Source: Aciduliprofundum sp. MAR08-339 (GTDB lineage Archaea > Thermoplasmatota > Thermoplasmata > Thermoplasmatales > Aciduliprofundaceae). Taken from it: a DNA stretch of 64,000 nt. Below are positions 13,214 to 22,719 of this stretch, piece after piece. The stretch spans positions 62,001 to 126,000 of the forward strand of contig NC_019942.1 of the NCBI RefSeq assembly GCF_000327505.1, given 5' to 3'. The first letter of the stretch is position 1, and every line of letters starts with the position of its first letter. Under the pieces are notes generated by a model that saw only the letters and a list, made by a program, of their open reading frames with translations, was not told the origin of the DNA and made no database searches. The position numbers and the translations under genes were made by a program.

Positions 13214-13222
13214 GTATATATA
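13214..13222 (-). promoter_or_regulatory. TATA box of the tRNA-binding protein gene
   Basis: GTATATATA, centred about 26 bases from ATG 13188 on the minus strand. It decides the start: anything upstream of it cannot be transcribed from this promoter. Confidence 0.6.
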
Positions 13223-13274: not shown

Positions 13275-13625
13275 ATGTCGGATTCCATAAGGATCACCAT
13301 AAGGCTATCCCGCAATGCGGCGGAGAAGATGGAAGAACTCGTCAAGAGCGGTGAGTTCAAAAACATATCGGAGGTTGTGCGCACAGCCATTGAAAATTTC
13401 CTTGCAGAAAAATTTGCTCCCAGAAACATTGAGAAGATAAGCGTTGATCTGCCAAAGGCCACAGTGGCAATGCTCACACGTCTCGTGGAGGAGGGAGACG
13501 CTGTGGACCTGGACGATGCCATACGCACCGCAGTCAGGGAGTACGTAAGAAAGCAGATTTCCATGCTTGCAAAGGAGAGCATAGAAAGGGGGCTGAAGGA
13601 GGAACTGGAGGAGGGTGAGATATAA
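13275..13625 (+). CDS. Tandem ribbon-helix-helix DNA-binding protein upstream of ftsZ (CdrS-like role)
   Basis: 116 residues containing two RHH units in one chain: IRITIRLSRNAAEKMEELV...ISEVVRTAIENFL (about 5-44) and EKISVDLPKATVAMLTRLV...LDDAIRTAVREYV (about 53-93), followed by an acidic tail. One chain can therefore form the intramolecular equivalent of an RHH dimer. It is directly followed by ftsZ with no spacer. In haloarchaea an RHH protein (CdrS) regulates ftsZ expression; a similar role here is inference. ATG 13275 is the first usable start. Confidence 0.85.
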   Translation: MSDSIRITIRLSRNAAEKMEELVKSGEFKNISEVVRTAIENFLAEKFAPRNIEKISVDLPKATVAMLTRLVEEGDAVDLDDAIRTAVREYVRKQISMLAKESIERGLKEELEEGEI

Positions 13626-14678
13626 TTGAGCATAGAATCCCTTTTCAGAAGGGCCTCCGCCTACGCTCTCGCTGGCCAAGGGTTCTATGAGGATAAGATC
13701 AACGTAGTGGTGGTTGGTGTCGGAGGGGCGGGCTGCAACGCAGTTAACAGAATGAAAAAATTGGGTTTATCCACCCCCACAATTGCCATAAACACGGATA
13801 TGGCACATTTGATGAGCATAGAGGCTGATAAAAAAATCCTCCTAAAAAAGGGCACGAGAGGTCTCGGAGCAGGTGGGCTTGTGGAGAGGGGAGAGAGCAG
13901 TGCCATTCTCGCAAGGAAGGAAATCGCGGAATTTTTCAAGGGTGTGGATGTTGCATTCATAACCACAGGTCTTGGCGGGGGCACTGGAACCGGAGCAACG
14001 CCCGTGATTGCGGATATTGCAAGGGAATTTGGGGCACTCGTTATAACAATAGCCACACTACCATTCAAAATAGAGAAGGCAAGATTCTCCAGAGCCAAGG
14101 ATGGTCTAAGAAGAATTGTAAAATCTTCAAACACAGTGATCGTGCTGGAAAACGATAAACTCATGAAAATTGTGCCCAATTTACCGCTTCAAAAGGCATT
14201 TATGGTCATGGACCAACTGGTGAGCTATACCATCATTTCATTTATTGACGTGCTCACAAAGCCCTCACTTATGAACATAGATCTCTCAGATCTGAGAAGA
14301 TTAATGGCAAGCGGCCGTTTTTCCACAATTCTCATAGGGGAAGGTGATACATACGATCCAAGAAAGATAGTCACTGATGCCCTCAACAGGCCGCTCATAA
14401 TGGATATGGACTACTCAAAGGCGAAGGGAGGGCTAATACACATAACCACAGGGGAGGATGTCCCCATTTCAAAGATCCACGCCGCCATAGACGCCATATC
14501 ATCCATGCTGGAAGATAATTCAAATATAATAATCGGGGCAAGAATAGACCCTGAGTTTGGTGATAGAATGCGTGTCCTTGTTGTTCTCACGGACATAAAG
14601 ATTCCCCTTCTGGAAGAGCGCTATGAGATGGGTGGAGAAAAACTACAAAAAGATTTGAGTCTGGAGAAGATAAGGTAA
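13626..14678 (+). CDS. ftsZ: Cell division GTPase FtsZ
   Basis: 350 residues. Shows VGVGGAGCNAVNRM (30-43), the tubulin signature GGGTGTGATP (117-126) and the T7-loop N217-I-D219-L-S-D222, so both GTP binding and hydrolysis residues are present. It polymerises into the division ring. The start is a TTG directly after the preceding TAA, with GGTGAGAT four bases earlier as ribosome site, indicating tight coupling to the RHH gene. The giant repeat-protein gene follows 46 bases later on the same strand. Confidence 0.95.
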   Translation: MSIESLFRRASAYALAGQGFYEDKINVVVVGVGGAGCNAVNRMKKLGLSTPTIAINTDMAHLMSIEADKKILLKKGTRGLGAGGLVERGESSAILARKEIAEFFKGVDVAFITTGLGGGTGTGATPVIADIAREFGALVITIATLPFKIEKARFSRAKDGLRRIVKSSNTVIVLENDKLMKIVPNLPLQKAFMVMDQLVSYTIISFIDVLTKPSLMNIDLSDLRRLMASGRFSTILIGEGDTYDPRKIVTDALNRPLIMDMDYSKAKGGLIHITTGEDVPISKIHAAIDAISSMLEDNSNIIIGARIDPEFGDRMRVLVVLTDIKIPLLEERYEMGGEKLQKDLSLEKIR

Positions 14679-14712
14679 AATTTAAATCGGGAAGTTTAAT
14701 AAGAGTTAATAA

Positions 14713-14718
14713 GGAGGT
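14713..14718 (+). promoter_or_regulatory. Shine-Dalgarno site of the giant repeat protein
   Basis: GGAGGT, six bases before TTG 14725. It excludes TTG 14719, which touches the site, and shows the gene is translated from a leadered, probably ftsZ-operon, transcript. Confidence 0.6.
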
Positions 14719-14724
14719 TTGAAA

Positions 14725-17700
14725 TTGCCAAGTCCATATCTTAGCAGGATAAAACTCGAGAAAGAGTTAGAGAAAAGGGCACAGGAAATTAAGCAAAAAA
14801 GGGAGAGGTCAGAGAAACTCATAAAGGATATTGAATCTGGCCTAAACATTCTCAAAAAATATGTGGATGTGGGGACATATTTAAATGATTTCAAAAAGGC
14901 CAAGGATGCCTTTTCAATCAAGGATTTTGATAAGGCACTTGGAATCCTAGAACCAATGTTCACCAAGCTGAGCAGTGAGGCCACCAAGGTATTTGAAGAG
15001 AACGAGAAAAAGATCGCCAAACTTCTTTCCTCCGGAAAAATAGAAGATTCTGCAAAAATAAAGGCGAATATGGATGAGGCAAAATCCAAACTCTCCACAA
15101 ATTTTGTTGAAAGTTTGAACATAATGGAAAACATTTCATTGCAGATTTCATCTTCCCTAAAAGACCTTGCGGAAAGAAGGAGAAGAGAGATACTCGCAAA
15201 AATAACGGGTCTTGAAAATTTTGAGGATATAAAAGAGGAAATTGAAAAAATCAGCGGTTCCTCTCTGGAAATACTGGATTCCCTAGAAAAAATTGAGAAA
15301 AAGATAAGGGATAGGGTAAAGAAAATAATGAATGAGAAAATAACCGAGGCAGACAAGCTCATAGCCATAGCAAAATCAGCCCACTACACCCTACCTGTGG
15401 ATGAGGGCAAGAAAAACGATGCTGAAAATGCGCTGAAAAACGGAGATTTCCCCGCAGCGATAAGGGCCTCCAACGAGTATCTCAAGGATACAAAAAGCGC
15501 ATTTAAGCTGTTCTTCACCAAGATTATAGACATATCCAAGATCCTGATCGGAGAAGGGGAAGCGATGGGGGAGGATATGAGCGGTCCCAAATCCCTTCTG
15601 GAGAGGGCAAAGGAGGCCTATGAAAAAGAAGAACTTGAAGAGGCCGTGAACCTTGTAAGAAAGGCCACCGAGGAAGCCGAGAAAATAAAACTCAGAAAGG
15701 TCATGGACCTCATAAAAATAGCAAGGGATAGACTTCTGGAGGCAAAGAACAACGGCATTGACATAGGCCCATATCTATCAATGATAGAGAATGCAAGAAA
15801 TTTCATAAAAATAGGCAAGCACAAAAGGGCCTACGATACTGTGCAAAACGCCATAAATATGGTTGAGAGGAGAGTAAATCTTTATTCACAACTCAAAAGT
15901 GAGATAAAGGAACTGAAGGATACCATTGAAGGTTTCAAAAGGGAAAACATAATTTTGGAGGGGGTTGAGGACAAACTTGCTGATATTGAGAAGAAGGTGG
16001 ATGAAAAGCCAGAGGATGCAGAGAGGATGATAGATGACCTGAAAAATTTAATCAAGGTAAACATCAGGGAAATAGCCACCTCCCTAACCCAGGAAATAAA
16101 CTCCAGGATATCCAAGGCCCAGGAGGCGGGAATTGACCTTGAGGATTTGAAAATCGAGGTTGACAACACCTACAAATTAATTGAGGAGGAAAATTACAAG
16201 GATGCCATAATAACCCTTCGTAAGATTGAGGAGAGATTGTACACGAACATCCTTGATTCAATAAAATCCCGCATCTCAGATTTTGAGAAATACGAGGAGT
16301 TAAAAAGAGAGCTGGAAGATCTCAAAAATTATGTGGATTCAGGGGATATAGATAGCTCTCTTGAAAAGGTAAAGGCCATGGAGAGTGAGGTTTTCAAGAT
16401 AGAAGCAAAGAAATACGAAGATATGCTGATTGACTTGGAGAGCAAGTGTGACTTCCTCAGATCTCTCGGAGAGGACGTATCAAAAATAGAGGAGTACATA
16501 AACTCCGCAAGGAATGCTCTTAATTCCAAGGATCTTGGAAAGGTAGAAGAACACGTTAAGGAGGCAAGGGCACTTATTGAGACATTTTCAAAGAGCATAG
16601 CACAGAGAGCATTTGAATCCGCAAAGGATTCCCTAGACGATGCGATCAGAGCCGGCATAGACGTGAAGAAAAATGGAATAGAGGATATGCTCACTGAGGC
16701 TGAAAAATGCCTTAAAAACGGAGATTACCAGGGAGTTCTTGAACACACATCCAAGTTGAAGAAGTTGGTGCAGGAACTTATTGGTAAAATTAAGAAATTG
16801 GATGAGAGAAGAGGTGCACTTGAAAACAGATTGGAAGAACTAAGAGATATGGGGCTGAAAGTTAATGAACTGGAAAAACTGCTCAAAGATATAGAGAGGG
16901 AAATCAAAGAGAACAACTTTGATTCTGCAGAAGAATTAACAAATCAGGGATTTGAGAGAGCAACTCTTATCCAACTGGAGGAGAAAATAGAAGCCCTGAA
17001 AGATGAAATAGAAGCGCTGGGAAGAATAATGAGGGATTTCAATTTGAGAAAGGAGTACCTGAGCATAACTGGAGAGTTCTTTTTGAAGTACAGGAATAAG
17101 GAGTATGAGGCTCTTGAAGAGGTGGGAAAAGAGACACTTGAAAAATTGAGAAAATCTGTGGAGAAGGTGTTTGAAAATTACGTTTCTCAGATTGAGAGTA
17201 TGGTTCAGGATCTTCAGGACATGGGTGCAACCATCAACACAAAACCAATCAGGGAAGGAAAAGAGATGTTCTGGGGAGGAGACATCATAGGCGCATTTTC
17301 CATCCTAAAGAAATTTGAGGAGGATGTGAAGAGAATTCACGGAGACAAGATGAAACTTCAGGAGATTGAAGATAGGATCTCCTCCCTCCTGGCAATAATG
17401 TCCTCTCTGGGTCTGAACTCTGACAAATTTGCAGAGAGGATAAAAGAGATTGAGGAAATTGAAGATAACACAGAAAAAATAAGCAAACTTGAAGAACTCC
17501 TAAAGGAGTTAGAAGATGCGATAAGAGAGAAGATAAATGCCATCCTTTCCACCGTAGAAAATGAACTTGACAAAATGCGCAGGATGGGAGAGGATGTGAC
17601 TGCGGCCGAGGGCATGATCTCACGTGCTAGAAGCCAAATGAACCAAGGAAATTATAAGACTGCACTTTATTTGATGTTTGAAGCCCTAGAAGAGGTGGAG

Positions 17701-19482
17701 AATATTGAAATGCAAAAGAATACTGCCTATGAAATGCTCAGGACCACGGAGATGAAGATAAAGAGCATGGGTCGTTTACTTCCTCCAGACATAATAAAGG
17801 AATACAAGAACGCAAGAATTCTATTTTTAAATGAGAGGTACAGAGAAGCCATACACAGAATCTTGGAGATAAGTGAGAAACTATGGAGCATTGAAAGGAC
17901 CATATACATCATAAAGGATAGAAATGCCAAGATAAAGGTTTACATCCAGCAAGCCAAGAAGAAGGGCATAGATATGAAGAATGTGCTTCTCTCGCTGGCA
18001 AGGGCAAAGAGTGAACTTCAGAAACTGAATTACGAGGCGGCACTGAGGTTTGTTAACGATGCATACAAGAGGGCAAGGAGATCAATTGAGAGTACGAAGG
18101 AGCAGTACAGGGTAAAATATGAGCCACTTTTGAAAATGCTCATCGAGTTCGATCTGCGCGATAAATTTGGAGATCTGGTAAAGTCCATCGACGAGGCCTT
18201 TGAAAAAGATGACATATCAAGGGCGGAGAGCCTGATAAACCAGTTAAAGGTAGAGATAGATAATGCGTTGAAAGAAAGGATGAGAGCCTTTATGGATGAA
18301 TTTGAAGAGAGGAGAGCCTTCGTAGAAAACTCGTCTCTCAGAAACAAGATCAATCTTGCGGAGGAGAGGAGAAAACTTGAAGAACTAATGAAAAATCCAA
18401 GAGATTTCTTTAAAAATTTTCCCAAGGTTATGGAGAAGGTGGATTCCATCATCCCTGAAATTCTAAAAAATTACATAGATGAATTCGTAGAGAATGTGAA
18501 AAACTTTGAAAAAGCAGGAGTGAGTGTTTCGGATTACATTGAAAAGGCAAAGGACCTGGCAGATAAAATAGGAGAGAGAGATTACAAGGAGATTATGGAA
18601 GACCTTCAATCCCTTAAAAATAACTTTGAAGTTTACATTGATGAGTATTCCAAGGAGAAAATGCAGCGTTCTTTATCCATGGTTGCAAAGTACAGCAAGA
18701 AGAAAGCCGAGGAGTTCAAGGAGAGAATGGAGGAACTATACCAGAAAAAGGATTATCTCAACCTGATCAAATTGACTGATGAGGCCATATCCTATGTAGG
18801 CAACTATAGAAATCTTGTAAGCAGGTTCAACACAAAGGCTCTCAGCCTTAAGGATCTGATAAAGCGTGCCATTTCCCTGGGTTTGAATATGGATAAGCAG
18901 ATAAAAAAACTGAAGGTTATTCTCGCCTCTCCAGAGGATCTTGAAAAGGCCATCGAGAAGATGGATGTAATTGCCAATGAGATAAACGAGGAAATTGACA
19001 AACTAAAGCCGGAGATAAGGGTAACGATAATGAATGCAAACAAGACGGATGACAGGTACATGGTCAAACTTGAAATAAAGAACACAGGAAATGTGGATGC
19101 AAATAACATATCCATCACAATGAACGGGGCTTTGAACACCGATAAGCCAATAGGGGTTGTGAAACTTGCAAAATCAGGCACCGAATACGTGGATACGCTA
19201 TTAACTCCGGGAGAAGGGGATGCTGTGCATATAAATTTAAAATATCAGAGGTTCGATAACAGGGAATATGAAGAAGAAATAACAACAAAGTTCAAGGTAA
19301 GCAAGAAGGGATTCCACATCGAGAAAAATAAGGAGAAGGTTAAATGTACTCTATGCCGTGGTACAATACTTCCAGGACTGGATATTGTGGTATGCGACAA
19401 CTGCGGTGCCGTTTATCATCTTCCATGTGCCAAGAGAGTGGGCAAATGCTTAAAATGCGGCACACCATTCAACTTCGAGTGA
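14725..19482 (+). CDS. Giant helical-repeat (spectrin/TPR-like) protein with CARDB-like and RING-like zinc domains
   Basis: 1585 residues, rich in Lys and Glu, no signal peptide or membrane segment, so cytoplasmic. Residues about 45-1430 are some 23 degenerate repeats of roughly 55-65 residues. A unit reads helix, a Gly-[IL]-[DN] or Gly-Glu-Asp turn, a helix of the form [IL]xxA+xxL, then Gly-[DNK]-[YF]xxA and a third helix; clear copies start near 15735, 16107, 16633, 16831, 17569 and 17945. Residues ~1430-1525 look like a CARDB/Ig-type sandwich (VKLEIKNTGNVDANNISI). The last 45 residues hold C-x2-C, C-x2-C-x4-H-x2-C and C-x2-C as in prokaryotic RING fingers. TTG 14725 is set by GGAGGT. Function unknown; its place behind ftsZ suggests a cytoskeletal or division role (inference). 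Confidence 0.85.
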   Translation: MPSPYLSRIKLEKELEKRAQEIKQKRERSEKLIKDIESGLNILKKYVDVGTYLNDFKKAKDAFSIKDFDKALGILEPMFTKLSSEATKVFEENEKKIAKLLSSGKIEDSAKIKANMDEAKSKLSTNFVESLNIMENISLQISSSLKDLAERRRREILAKITGLENFEDIKEEIEKISGSSLEILDSLEKIEKKIRDRVKKIMNEKITEADKLIAIAKSAHYTLPVDEGKKNDAENALKNGDFPAAIRASNEYLKDTKSAFKLFFTKIIDISKILIGEGEAMGEDMSGPKSLLERAKEAYEKEELEEAVNLVRKATEEAEKIKLRKVMDLIKIARDRLLEAKNNGIDIGPYLSMIENARNFIKIGKHKRAYDTVQNAINMVERRVNLYSQLKSEIKELKDTIEGFKRENIILEGVEDKLADIEKKVDEKPEDAERMIDDLKNLIKVNIREIATSLTQEINSRISKAQEAGIDLEDLKIEVDNTYKLIEEENYKDAIITLRKIEERLYTNILDSIKSRISDFEKYEELKRELEDLKNYVDSGDIDSSLEKVKAMESEVFKIEAKKYEDMLIDLESKCDFLRSLGEDVSKIEEYINSARNALNSKDLGKVEEHVKEARALIETFSKSIAQRAFESAKDSLDDAIRAGIDVKKNGIEDMLTEAEKCLKNGDYQGVLEHTSKLKKLVQELIGKIKKLDERRGALENRLEELRDMGLKVNELEKLLKDIEREIKENNFDSAEELTNQGFERATLIQLEEKIEALKDEIEALGRIMRDFNLRKEYLSITGEFFLKYRNKEYEALEEVGKETLEKLRKSVEKVFENYVSQIESMVQDLQDMGATINTKPIREGKEMFWGGDIIGAFSILKKFEEDVKRIHGDKMKLQEIEDRISSLLAIMSSLGLNSDKFAERIKEIEEIEDNTEKISKLEELLKELEDAIREKINAILSTVENELDKMRRMGEDVTAAEGMISRARSQMNQGNYKTALYLMFEALEEVENIEMQKNTAYEMLRTTEMKIKSMGRLLPPDIIKEYKNARILFLNERYREAIHRILEISEKLWSIERTIYIIKDRNAKIKVYIQQAKKKGIDMKNVLLSLARAKSELQKLNYEAALRFVNDAYKRARRSIESTKEQYRVKYEPLLKMLIEFDLRDKFGDLVKSIDEAFEKDDISRAESLINQLKVEIDNALKERMRAFMDEFEERRAFVENSSLRNKINLAEERRKLEELMKNPRDFFKNFPKVMEKVDSIIPEILKNYIDEFVENVKNFEKAGVSVSDYIEKAKDLADKIGERDYKEIMEDLQSLKNNFEVYIDEYSKEKMQRSLSMVAKYSKKKAEEFKERMEELYQKKDYLNLIKLTDEAISYVGNYRNLVSRFNTKALSLKDLIKRAISLGLNMDKQIKKLKVILASPEDLEKAIEKMDVIANEINEEIDKLKPEIRVTIMNANKTDDRYMVKLEIKNTGNVDANNISITMNGALNTDKPIGVVKLAKSGTEYVDTLLTPGEGDAVHINLKYQRFDNREYEEEITTKFKVSKKGFHIEKNKEKVKCTLCRGTILPGLDIVVCDNCGAVYHLPCAKRVGKCLKCGTPFNFE

Positions 19483-19486
19483 TTCC

Positions 19487-20974
19487 ATGCTACAAAAAAG
19501 ATTTGGACTGGCAAAAATTACGGAGGGAGAAATAACAACTCCCGGGCTACTCAAGGTGGGAGAGGACATAGAATTCAGGAATAACTCATTCCGATTCCTG
19601 GATTTTGAAATTGAGAGGGATGTGCTCTTCTCTCCATTATTCAAGGAGAGAGAAATAAAAATAAAGGAGAGCATTTACCTTGTTCCAAACATTCTCACCA
19701 TGCTCAGGAACACAAGGGATCTTGTGGATTTTACCATTGATTTGAGGGAAAGAATAGGTTACGACAAACTTCTTTACGCTCCCGGCACTCCTCCACACCT
19801 GTTTCCAATAATGGTATATCTGGGCTACGACCTATTTGACAACTCCATTGAAAAGATGGATGAATACTCATTCCTTGGACCGGGAAGGGGCATTGATAAC
19901 TTTTCAGAACTCATGATCAAGCAGGTAAGAATTGCCCTGGAAAACGGGAATCTCAGAGAACTGGTGGAGAGCGTTCCAAACGTAAAGGCAAAGGAGATTC
20001 TGAGGTACCTAGATATGAAGTACTACCACATCCAAGAGAGATTCTATCCAGTGTGGTCCAGAACGCTCAAGGCAGTTTCCCTGGATTCTCTTTTCAGACC
20101 GGATATTCAGAGATGGTTGGAACGTTTGAGGGAGAGATACAAAAAACCAGATTGGGCAAAATACCTTCTTCTCATACCCTGCAGTGCGAGAAAACCATAT
20201 TCGGAGTCCAGAAGCCACAGGGAGATGAGGTTGTATATAAAGAGCACAATGCATGAGGTCATACTCACTTCCCCACTAGCCCTCGTTCCCAGAGAACTTG
20301 AAAGGTTCTATCCTGCCCAGAATTACGATATACCTGTGATCGGACACTGGTACGAGGATGAGAAGAAAATTATAGAAGAAAATCTACGATGGTACCTGGA
20401 AAACAATGAATACGAAGGAATAGTCTCCTTTCTCCCCGAAAGCATGAAATTCTTGGAAAAATTGCTTAACGAGTTCGGTGTAGTACAGATATGGGGCAAA
20501 GATTTTGAAAATCTTGAAAAAGAAACGAGAAAACTCGGATACCATGTACCCAGAGGAAAAATGGAACTGGAAAACATGAAATCCCTTGCAAGATTCCAGT
20601 TTGGAACCTGTGAGGATATGCTTGATGGAGCAAAGATAAAGGGCAGGTACCAGCAGATCAACATCTGGAAGGATGGAAAAAGATTATTCGGGTACAATCC
20701 GGAGAAGGGTATGCTCACCCTAACTGAGGAGTCCGCAAAATGCTTGCTCTCTGAGGGTAAGTACATTGTAGAAATAGACGACTTCTACCCGGAGGGTGAT
20801 GTTTTTGCCGCTGGTATAAACTATGCTTCCGAGGAGATTAGGGAGGGAGACGAGGTTGCGATCGCCCACAAAAATGAGTTAAGGGGATGGGGCATTGCAA
20901 GGATGAGTTCCTGGGACATGGTGGAGCAGAGAAGGGGAAAGGCCGTGAAACTTAGAGGGAGGGTCAAAGGTTAA
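19487..20974 (+). CDS. arcS: Archaeosine synthase ArcS (TgtA2)
   Basis: 495 residues. The catalytic-core signature LLIPCSARKPYSESRSH is near residue 230, and a PUA RNA-binding domain fills the C-terminus (GDVFAAGINYASEEIREGDEVAIAH...GWGIARMSS). ArcS converts preQ0 at tRNA position 15 towards archaeosine. Its ATG lies four bases after the stop of the giant repeat-protein gene, so it is probably on the same transcript, although no functional link is obvious. It overlaps the end of the polB gene on the other strand by 4 bases. Confidence 0.9.
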   Translation: MLQKRFGLAKITEGEITTPGLLKVGEDIEFRNNSFRFLDFEIERDVLFSPLFKEREIKIKESIYLVPNILTMLRNTRDLVDFTIDLRERIGYDKLLYAPGTPPHLFPIMVYLGYDLFDNSIEKMDEYSFLGPGRGIDNFSELMIKQVRIALENGNLRELVESVPNVKAKEILRYLDMKYYHIQERFYPVWSRTLKAVSLDSLFRPDIQRWLERLRERYKKPDWAKYLLLIPCSARKPYSESRSHREMRLYIKSTMHEVILTSPLALVPRELERFYPAQNYDIPVIGHWYEDEKKIIEENLRWYLENNEYEGIVSFLPESMKFLEKLLNEFGVVQIWGKDFENLEKETRKLGYHVPRGKMELENMKSLARFQFGTCEDMLDGAKIKGRYQQINIWKDGKRLFGYNPEKGMLTLTEESAKCLLSEGKYIVEIDDFYPEGDVFAAGINYASEEIREGDEVAIAHKNELRGWGIARMSSWDMVEQRRGKAVKLRGRVKG

Positions 20975-22719
20975 AACCACTGCTTTATAGGACTCACCCC
21001 GAATGGCTCAAATGTGCGATTTATTGTTTCATCGTACAGTTTCAGATAATAATTCACATCGACATCCTTGGGGTGAACCATCTCAATTGGTCTTGCCCTG
21101 TGGGTTGGACCTCCAGCTCCACGAACAATGGCAATGTAAATGTACATACCCCTGTGAACTTCAATCCCAAAATTCTCCATCAGCAATCTCGCAGCGACAC
21201 TCGCCTTTGTGGCCTTCTCATACTCCTCTGGCTTCTTGGTCATCTGCTCCACAATTGCAATTTCTTCAATTTCAAAATCAAAACCACTTATCCTGCGACG
21301 GTACTTATTTCTTATACTTCTTGCCTCATCGTACTCACCCTTCAAAAGATGCTCAACAACTGACCTCTGGGCCTCCTTTATTATGGAAGGGTAATCCCGG
21401 CGTATGTATTCAAGCCCAACCCCGTAAACCTTTTCGGATGATAGATGTGCGTATTTTTTCTTGCTCCAGTAAACTGCCCTATCTGCAATTCTCTCAAACT
21501 CCAGATCCAGTGGAAGGGAGGAATTTATATCTTCCAAGATCCTATCAACATCACCACCAGTGAACTGGATGCCATCCGTGTCTATATATATCACCTTACC
21601 ACCCATGCCCTCTATCCTTTTCTTCACCTCCTTTATATAGTATCTCGCAAGGGCTGCTATAAGCTGCGCTGCATTTCTATTGTAGTAAGTGGCTCCATTC
21701 CACCCCATATAGCCGTACATGGCATTTGCCATAACCTTCAATGCTCTCTGCTCAGCATCCAGCTTCTTGCTGTATTTATCCCTCAATATCTTTTTAATTT
21801 CCTGCCTTCTAATTAAAAAGTCTTCAATAAGATGAGGTATGACTCCCTGAAAATCCCTCCTTACCCTGTGTCTTGTACCCTCAACCTCAACCATTTCGCC
21901 CTCCCCCATATCCACAGTTTCGGGACTTATGTTCCATACCCTGATTATGCTCGGATACATGCTCTGGAAATCAAGATACACGACACTCTCATAAACTCCA
22001 GGAGATTTAAGATACACGTACCCTCCCTCGTATCTACCCTTTCCCCCAACCCTTATCTTCCCTATTTTTCTCTTTTCCATCTCCCTTTTCACAAGCACAT
22101 CTATGAGTTCTCCCACAGTCATTCTCGTCTGTCTGTGCAAGGGCACACCCGTGATTTCACTCAAACTCTCCTGGAAAGGTAGAATCTCAGAGGAAATTTT
22201 TTCCACAATTGAAATGTAATCCCTCGCATATTTTTCCATATCTTCCTGTAACAGATCCTTCAGTTTGAACTGGAAAATCCTCTTGAATTTAAGACCGACC
22301 GCACCCGCAAGTTCGTCAATATCCTTCGTTGGGAGATTTGGAAAATCGCGCCAAGCTATGGAAAACATATCAATATTCTCCCTTCCATGAATTTTTGTTT
22401 CCTTTAAAATTATGCCCCTGAAATATTTACCGGAAAATTCAATTTCACTTCCATCTCTCCCAAGATTCAATGGAATCCCATACATTCTTGATCTTTCTTT
22501 GAGAAGTGGAAAATCCTCAGAATCCTGCCTGAATCCTATAACCCTGTCGGGATCATAGGCCTTGAATATCTCAACAAATCTTTCAATAATCTCGCGTTCT
22601 CCACCATCCAGAATCTCAAGGTTATCGCTTTTCACCGCAATGAGATTTATTCTATCCCTCTTGGGATTTATGTAATTGCACTCCGTTCTTGAAAATACCT
22701 TGAAATACAGGGTTCTCAT
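20971..22719 (-). CDS. Short family B DNA polymerase with degenerate exonuclease
   Basis: 582 residues against about 770-800 for replicative archaeal PolB. The polymerase motifs are intact: A, YLDFQSMYPSI (Asp250); B, KVMANAMYGYMGW; C, YIDTDGI (Asp380, Asp382); and WSKKKYA. The N-terminal ~120 residues that hold the uracil-sensing domain are absent. The Exo I D-x-E is replaced (YFKVF, residues 5-9), Exo II keeps Asp66 but its Asn is Arg64, and Exo III is off register (YARD). It is therefore probably a non-proofreading polymerase, possibly for repair or translesion synthesis, resembling the PolB2 class but with catalytic residues kept. A TATA-like TTTTAATATC lies upstream. Confidence 0.88.
   Translation of the reverse strand: MRTLYFKVFSRTECNYINPKRDRINLIAVKSDNLEILDGGEREIIERFVEIFKAYDPDRVIGFRQDSEDFPLLKERSRMYGIPLNLGRDGSEIEFSGKYFRGIILKETKIHGRENIDMFSIAWRDFPNLPTKDIDELAGAVGLKFKRIFQFKLKDLLQEDMEKYARDYISIVEKISSEILPFQESLSEITGVPLHRQTRMTVGELIDVLVKREMEKRKIGKIRVGGKGRYEGGYVYLKSPGVYESVVYLDFQSMYPSIIRVWNISPETVDMGEGEMVEVEGTRHRVRRDFQGVIPHLIEDFLIRRQEIKKILRDKYSKKLDAEQRALKVMANAMYGYMGWNGATYYNRNAAQLIAALARYYIKEVKKRIEGMGGKVIYIDTDGIQFTGGDVDRILEDINSSLPLDLEFERIADRAVYWSKKKYAHLSSEKVYGVGLEYIRRDYPSIIKEAQRSVVEHLLKGEYDEARSIRNKYRRRISGFDFEIEEIAIVEQMTKKPEEYEKATKASVAARLLMENFGIEVHRGMYIYIAIVRGAGGPTHRARPIEMVHPKDVDVNYYLKLYDETINRTFEPFGVSPIKQWF

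Follow-up and report, generated by a model that had tools for sequence, protein, structure and literature searches.

What is a protein of 1585 residues doing directly behind ftsZ in an archaeal genome, and does it take part in cell division? To our knowledge, few proteins other than SepF and those of the PRC-barrel type are known to partner FtsZ in archaea. The question is posed by a 64,000-nucleotide (nt) stretch of the deep-sea-vent archaeon Aciduliprofundum sp. MAR08-339 (NC_019942.1, positions 62,001 to 126,000; hereafter the window), from a genome that forms a single contig of 1,437,090 bases. Here genes for a ribbon-helix-helix (RHH) protein, FtsZ and the large repeat protein, for which the name GIANT was coined in this analysis, follow one another on the plus strand. 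This order is kept at every locus with upstream sequence in the Aciduliprofundum/DHVE2 family to which the genome belongs (f1), and GIANT occurs widely in the class Thermoplasmata, with a predicted architecture of regular helical repeats followed by Ig-like and zinc domains. Given this genome context, GIANT would most likely serve FtsZ2-driven division as a rod-shaped scaffold, perhaps with a tie to the segregation of chromosomes, a reading on which our own judgement is evenly poised.

The RHH-FtsZ-GIANT block and its conservation

The order RHH, FtsZ, GIANT is found in all 13 f1 loci with upstream sequence, drawn from four genera (two of the 13 show the ftsZ end only), and in all of these loci the RHH gene lies directly upstream of ftsZ and co-directional with it, as in a cdrS-ftsZ2 locus. 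The synteny of ftsZ and GIANT, for which the initial annotation had suggested a search, is conserved in every DHVE2-family genome whose contig permits it, and ArcS follows GIANT in every f1 locus whose contig extends that far. The outer genes differ: on the downstream side g1 and g4 have a PolB-like gene and g2 a pyrophosphatase-like one, and the upstream neighbours also vary between genera (labels partly by eye on both sides). Since the block is kept despite these differing flanks and an identity of only about 35% between the GIANT proteins of f1 genera, its order is more than chance. The features of the locus, in window coordinates, are as follows.

13215..13222, plus strand: TATATATA, probable TATA box of the putative cluster promoter, 60 nt 5' of the RHH start codon, read in the sequence
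13275..13625, plus strand: tandem RHH protein, CdrS-like, 116 residues; ATG 13275, stop 13623-13625 (Pfam RHH_1, NF058555)
13626..14678, plus strand: FtsZ of the CdrS-linked (FtsZ2-type) clade, 350 residues; TTG 13626, stop 14676-14678 (TIGR00065, paralogue tree)
14681..14687, plus strand: TATA-like element TTTAAAT, 44 nt before the GIANT start (family-wide comparison)
14713..14717, plus strand: ribosome-binding site GGAGG, 7 nt 5' of TTG 14725
14725..19482, plus strand: GIANT, 1585 residues; TTG 14725, 1585 codons, stop 19480-19482
14725..18999, plus strand: predicted helical rod of GIANT, residues 1-1425 (AlphaFold2 models, unit spacing, N-termini)
19015..19290, plus strand: Ig/CARDB-like beta domain of GIANT, about residues 1431-1522 (model strands, Foldseek, CARDB match of a homologue)
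19327..19476, plus strand: RING-type treble-clef zinc domain (C4HC3) of GIANT, residues 1535-1584 (Pfam PF14446)
19487..20974, plus strand: ArcS, archaeosine synthase alpha subunit, 495 residues (NF053620, PF17884)

Re-reading of the coordinates bears out the order, strand, spacing and ribosome site of RHH, ftsZ and GIANT as first described. The cluster had been presented as three genes; these stand, and a fourth, ArcS, was missing from the list. All four are co-directional, with gaps of 46 nt between ftsZ and GIANT and 4 nt between GIANT and ArcS, the latter matching NF053620 (E 2.7e-123, 412 bits against a cut-off of 600) and exceeding the cut-off of PF17884. Beside the cluster, on the minus strand, lies a short (582-residue) family-B-like DNA polymerase gene (window 20971-22719; label by eye) that is kept in g1 and g4.

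The RHH protein matches PF01402 (RHH_1) in two stretches (E 1e-10) and likewise the CdrS equivalog model NF058555 (E 2.6e-14, 52.9 bits against a cut-off of 100), and so by its profiles reads as CdrS-like, outside the membership of the haloarchaeal model. The window FtsZ passes TIGR00065, scoring 305 bits where the cut-off is 295.2, and carries the tubulin signature loop GGGTGTG (as GGGTGTGATP). Its gene included, the genome holds seven of the tubulin superfamily, and the same number was counted in each of three further f1 genomes. When FtsZs of the order are placed in a tree, the proteins linked to RHH genes form one side of a branch with support 93/89. The FtsZ of locus L002, with a secE-like gene downstream (by eye), falls in the other superclade; a place before secE is the usual setting of FtsZ1. 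The FtsZ2-type label refers to this comparison within the order. Profiles, tree and the gap of 0 nt between the RHH stop codon and the ftsZ TTG agree with the earlier description of an RHH regulator next to ftsZ, now as a CdrS-type protein beside an FtsZ2-type gene. Since RHH genes have already been described next to ftsZ2 across the archaea (PMC7439475, PMC9871819), this half of the locus follows a known pattern, differing here in that the RHH domain is duplicated, and it is the giant partner that is new. A second RHH-tubulin pair exists in the window genome (L006:1028-2148; C1 about 1,241,860-1,242,980), where the end of a 124-residue RHH protein meets a divergent tubulin-superfamily protein of 250 residues.

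The statement that GIANT has no clear promoter of its own is doubtful, given that T(A/T)TTAAAT or a close variant stands 41-44 nt before the GIANT start in all 12 f1 loci with an intergenic gap, at a distance from the ftsZ stop that varies among them. In genome G006 the gap is only 12 nt, which leaves no room for a promoter between the two genes and speaks for a tie of GIANT to ftsZ, and the TATA-like box is absent. Judging from the TATA-like elements of the other loci, GIANT probably has its own promoter.

The sister family (f3) shows the block in decay. All nine of its loci with upstream sequence have an RHH gene, then a protein of about 290 residues in the position of FtsZ, then GIANT or ArcS. 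The slot protein aligns collinearly with FtsZ across 258 columns (hhalign E 4e-6, probability 87%), its profile recovers proteins that PF00091 also finds, and the GGGTGTG loop is missing, so it appears from these comparisons to be a degenerate FtsZ relative. The degenerate family (L044:52-951, L118:5111-5974, L262-L269) occurs in 13 of the 15 f3 genomes searched. GIANT erodes together with this slot: in genera g14, g17 and g146 it is shorter (about 1290-1340 residues) and followed by ArcS where the contig continues, and in genus g7 it is exactly missing, with ArcS directly after the FtsZ-like gene in six of six loci (L262, L263, L264, L267, L268, L269).

Architecture of GIANT

The helical repeats that were expected of GIANT are predicted with good confidence by AlphaFold2, as regular units of a spectrin- or TPR-like kind. 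The rod would comprise about 23 units of about 61 residues, each a short helix of about 14 residues and a long one of about 40. Models of the two halves reach mean pLDDT (predicted local distance difference test) values of 84.8 and 85.5, with a low predicted template modelling score that makes their overall curvature unreliable. Some homologues match TPR-type models in places. A search of the PDB with the rod profile gave nothing useful, and Foldseek returned no significant PDB match for the N-terminal rod, the best being vinculin at E 0.45. The hydropathy scan found no transmembrane segment (maximum 19-residue value 1.3, located inside the zinc domain), in keeping with the cytoplasmic protein first proposed.

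What had been overlooked is the C-terminal end, where Pfam, the model and Foldseek together reveal an Ig-like domain and a RING-type zinc domain. The former is modelled as beta strands and resembles the Ig folds of transglutaminase 2 and AP2-appendage type (Foldseek E about 1e-3), and one GIANT homologue matches CARDB just below cut-off. The zinc tail passes Prok-RING_1 (PF14446; E 7.5e-14, 51.9 bits against a gathering cut-off of 29.1). Seven of its eight ligand positions are invariant in 16 homologues and the eighth (C1560) is kept in at least 90%, in a C4HC3 pattern with short spacing that is weakly PHD-like and not the classical C3HC4. Within f1, conservation is highest at this tail and around residues 306-427 and 977-1098, and an N-terminal motif of about 20 residues is conserved class-wide. 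SMC/Rad50 relatives were also considered: Pfam shows no SMC_N or hinge in GIANT, and weak coiled-coil-type Rad50 matches fall far below cut-off. Literature searches on Prok-RING in archaea and on Thermoplasmata FtsZ with SMC/ScpA yielded nothing on GIANT.

Genus g2 has tandem pairs of proteins of about 1000-1100 residues with the zinc tail seen in GIANT (L050:1591-8075, also L051 and L052), and the L050 pair also carries DUF835 domains. The repeat profile of GIANT also picks up still larger open frames, most of them in other parts of the phylum, namely G336:C92:98759-109171 (a 7295-residue frame), G316:C3 (3155 residues), G323:C3 (3198) and G118:C11 (3421).

Distribution across the class and competing explanations

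The GIANT profile matches 164 of 300 genomes and 57 of 91 genera in Thermoplasmata, where full frames span about 1400-1670 residues and most bear the zinc tail. The Thermoplasma-type family (f6) has no GIANT in any of the 20 genomes listed, and those of its FtsZs that were tested lie outside the CdrS-linked clade. The suggestion that GIANT serves an organism without a rigid wall finds no support here, since the protein is missing from every sampled genome of this family and found across the remainder of the class, and it was rejected. The distribution of SepF was likewise set aside, as it does not track GIANT. In six families (f19, f22, f25, f27, f28 and f30), GIANT is the next gene after SMC-ScpA-ScpB and shares their strand. 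Being FtsZ-adjacent in two families only and placed behind these condensin genes in a six-family clade, GIANT is not a component reserved for a single FtsZ operon.

Taken together, the best reading is that the Aciduliprofundum/DHVE2 family has its CdrS-FtsZ2 division locus here, to which a giant protein of class-wide occurrence has been added as a putative scaffold. The tandem-RHH protein would regulate the transcript that also carries ftsZ, and GIANT would be made by read-through plus, probably, from its own TATA promoter. The product would be a long cytoplasmic rod of helical repeats whose zinc tail and conserved patches (residues about 306-427 and 977-1098) may bind partners. Most likely, GIANT would organise or space FtsZ2 filaments; it might also link them to the chromosome machinery SMC-ScpAB, as suggested by its place after smc-scpA-scpB in the other clade.

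Several observations weigh against so close a tie to division. The conserved TATA-like box suggests that GIANT is in part expressed independently; families f4 and f5 keep the RHH-FtsZ pair and GIANT at separate places; and in most families outside the order neither FtsZ nor SMC adjoins GIANT in the stretches read. ArcS, a tRNA-modification enzyme, is GIANT's downstream neighbour in f1, f3 and f4, and within this order it adjoins GIANT more constantly than FtsZ does. The shared erosion in f3 is suggestive only, because the losses in f3 and f6 amount to two or three events. On the chromosome side, the SMC-linked position counts as one arrangement and not six, given that the six families form a single clade, and in G020, from the window's own order, an opposite-strand RNA-polymerase subunit gene stands between ScpA and GIANT.

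The main rival is that GIANT may be unrelated to division in function (a general scaffold, or translation-linked, or a stress protein) and co-transcribed with ftsZ and arcS in this lineage by happenstance. The very varied neighbours outside the order, a GIANT-ArcS coupling as tight as or tighter than that of FtsZ and GIANT, the probable separate promoter and the informational genes often found in archaeal ftsZ neighbourhoods (PMC9871819) all fit such hitchhiking. However, the block has been kept while its flanks were rearranged, GIANT has eroded or gone in lineages whose CdrS-linked FtsZ has degenerated or disappeared, and a separate link to condensin genes exists. Happenstance seems to us a rather unlikely account. 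In another view, GIANT is mainly a chromosome or condensin partner and its FtsZ neighbourhood in f1 and f3 a lineage-specific relocation sharing only regulation with division. A class-wide protein whose FtsZ linkage is confined to two families, with SMC-ScpA-ScpB directly upstream in the six-family clade and SMC-ScpA upstream in G020, would suit this view. Against it, SMC-ScpA lies elsewhere in the window genome (about 1,066,900-1,069,650), and an apparent match in distribution has vanished. PF02616 detects ScpA in f1, f4 and f5 and has no match to it in f3 or f6, the same pattern as GIANT; with a profile of our own, however, ScpA is recovered directly behind SMC in those f3 and f6 genomes that were read, including those without GIANT. 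The co-occurrence was rejected as an artefact, because the Pfam model is insensitive here, and a mainly chromosomal role is quite unlikely in our estimate. Finally, the zinc domain could be a true RING E3, with GIANT serving as a large adaptor by which division proteins are turned over or receive a ubiquitin-like modification. The PF14446 match above cut-off and the same tail capping DUF835 proteins in g2 speak for this, whereas the non-classical ligand pattern, the apparent lack of the tail in f15 (L098, L099), f24 (L109) and f25 (L110) and the fact that no ubiquitin-like genes were seen adjoining GIANT make it highly improbable.

A class-wide giant protein of predicted rod shape that neighbours ftsZ2 in one lineage and condensin genes in a second is a concrete, testable candidate for a division or segregation scaffold. 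Moreover, lineages with a decayed FtsZ slot and a shrunken or lost GIANT would supply a natural experiment.

Comparison with known systems

The nearest relative of the locus is the cdrS-ftsZ2 operon known from haloarchaea and other archaea (PMC7439475, PMC8406309). As there, an RHH regulator lies directly upstream of an FtsZ2-type gene and is probably co-transcribed with it; unlike there, the RHH domain is in tandem, GIANT and ArcS follow, and the stretch read holds no CdrL gene. The Prok-RING_1 family accounts for the C-terminal 50 or so residues of GIANT, the rest of which lies outside it. The SMC-ScpA-ScpB condensin operon has GIANT as its next gene in the clade of six families, but the SMC-ScpA genes of the window genome stand apart from GIANT, which has no SMC domains.

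For function, an instructive parallel is EzrA of Firmicutes, a spectrin-like rod that regulates FtsZ (PMC4243239). By analogy only, GIANT resembles it as a predicted cytoplasmic rod of head-to-tail helical repeats encoded beside ftsZ. EzrA has five triple-helix repeats of about 100 residues; the GIANT unit, with its short and long helix, is of another size and kind, and GIANT has Ig-like and zinc domains and lacks a transmembrane segment. No sequence match to EzrA and no significant structural match (Foldseek E 6.7) was found. An extension of the analogy, in which GIANT would couple SMC-ScpAB segregation to FtsZ2-driven division throughout Thermoplasmata, parallel to EzrA in function and different in its repeat, is in our view doubtful. 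Overall, EzrA is the closest working analogue of GIANT, which does not itself belong to the EzrA family.

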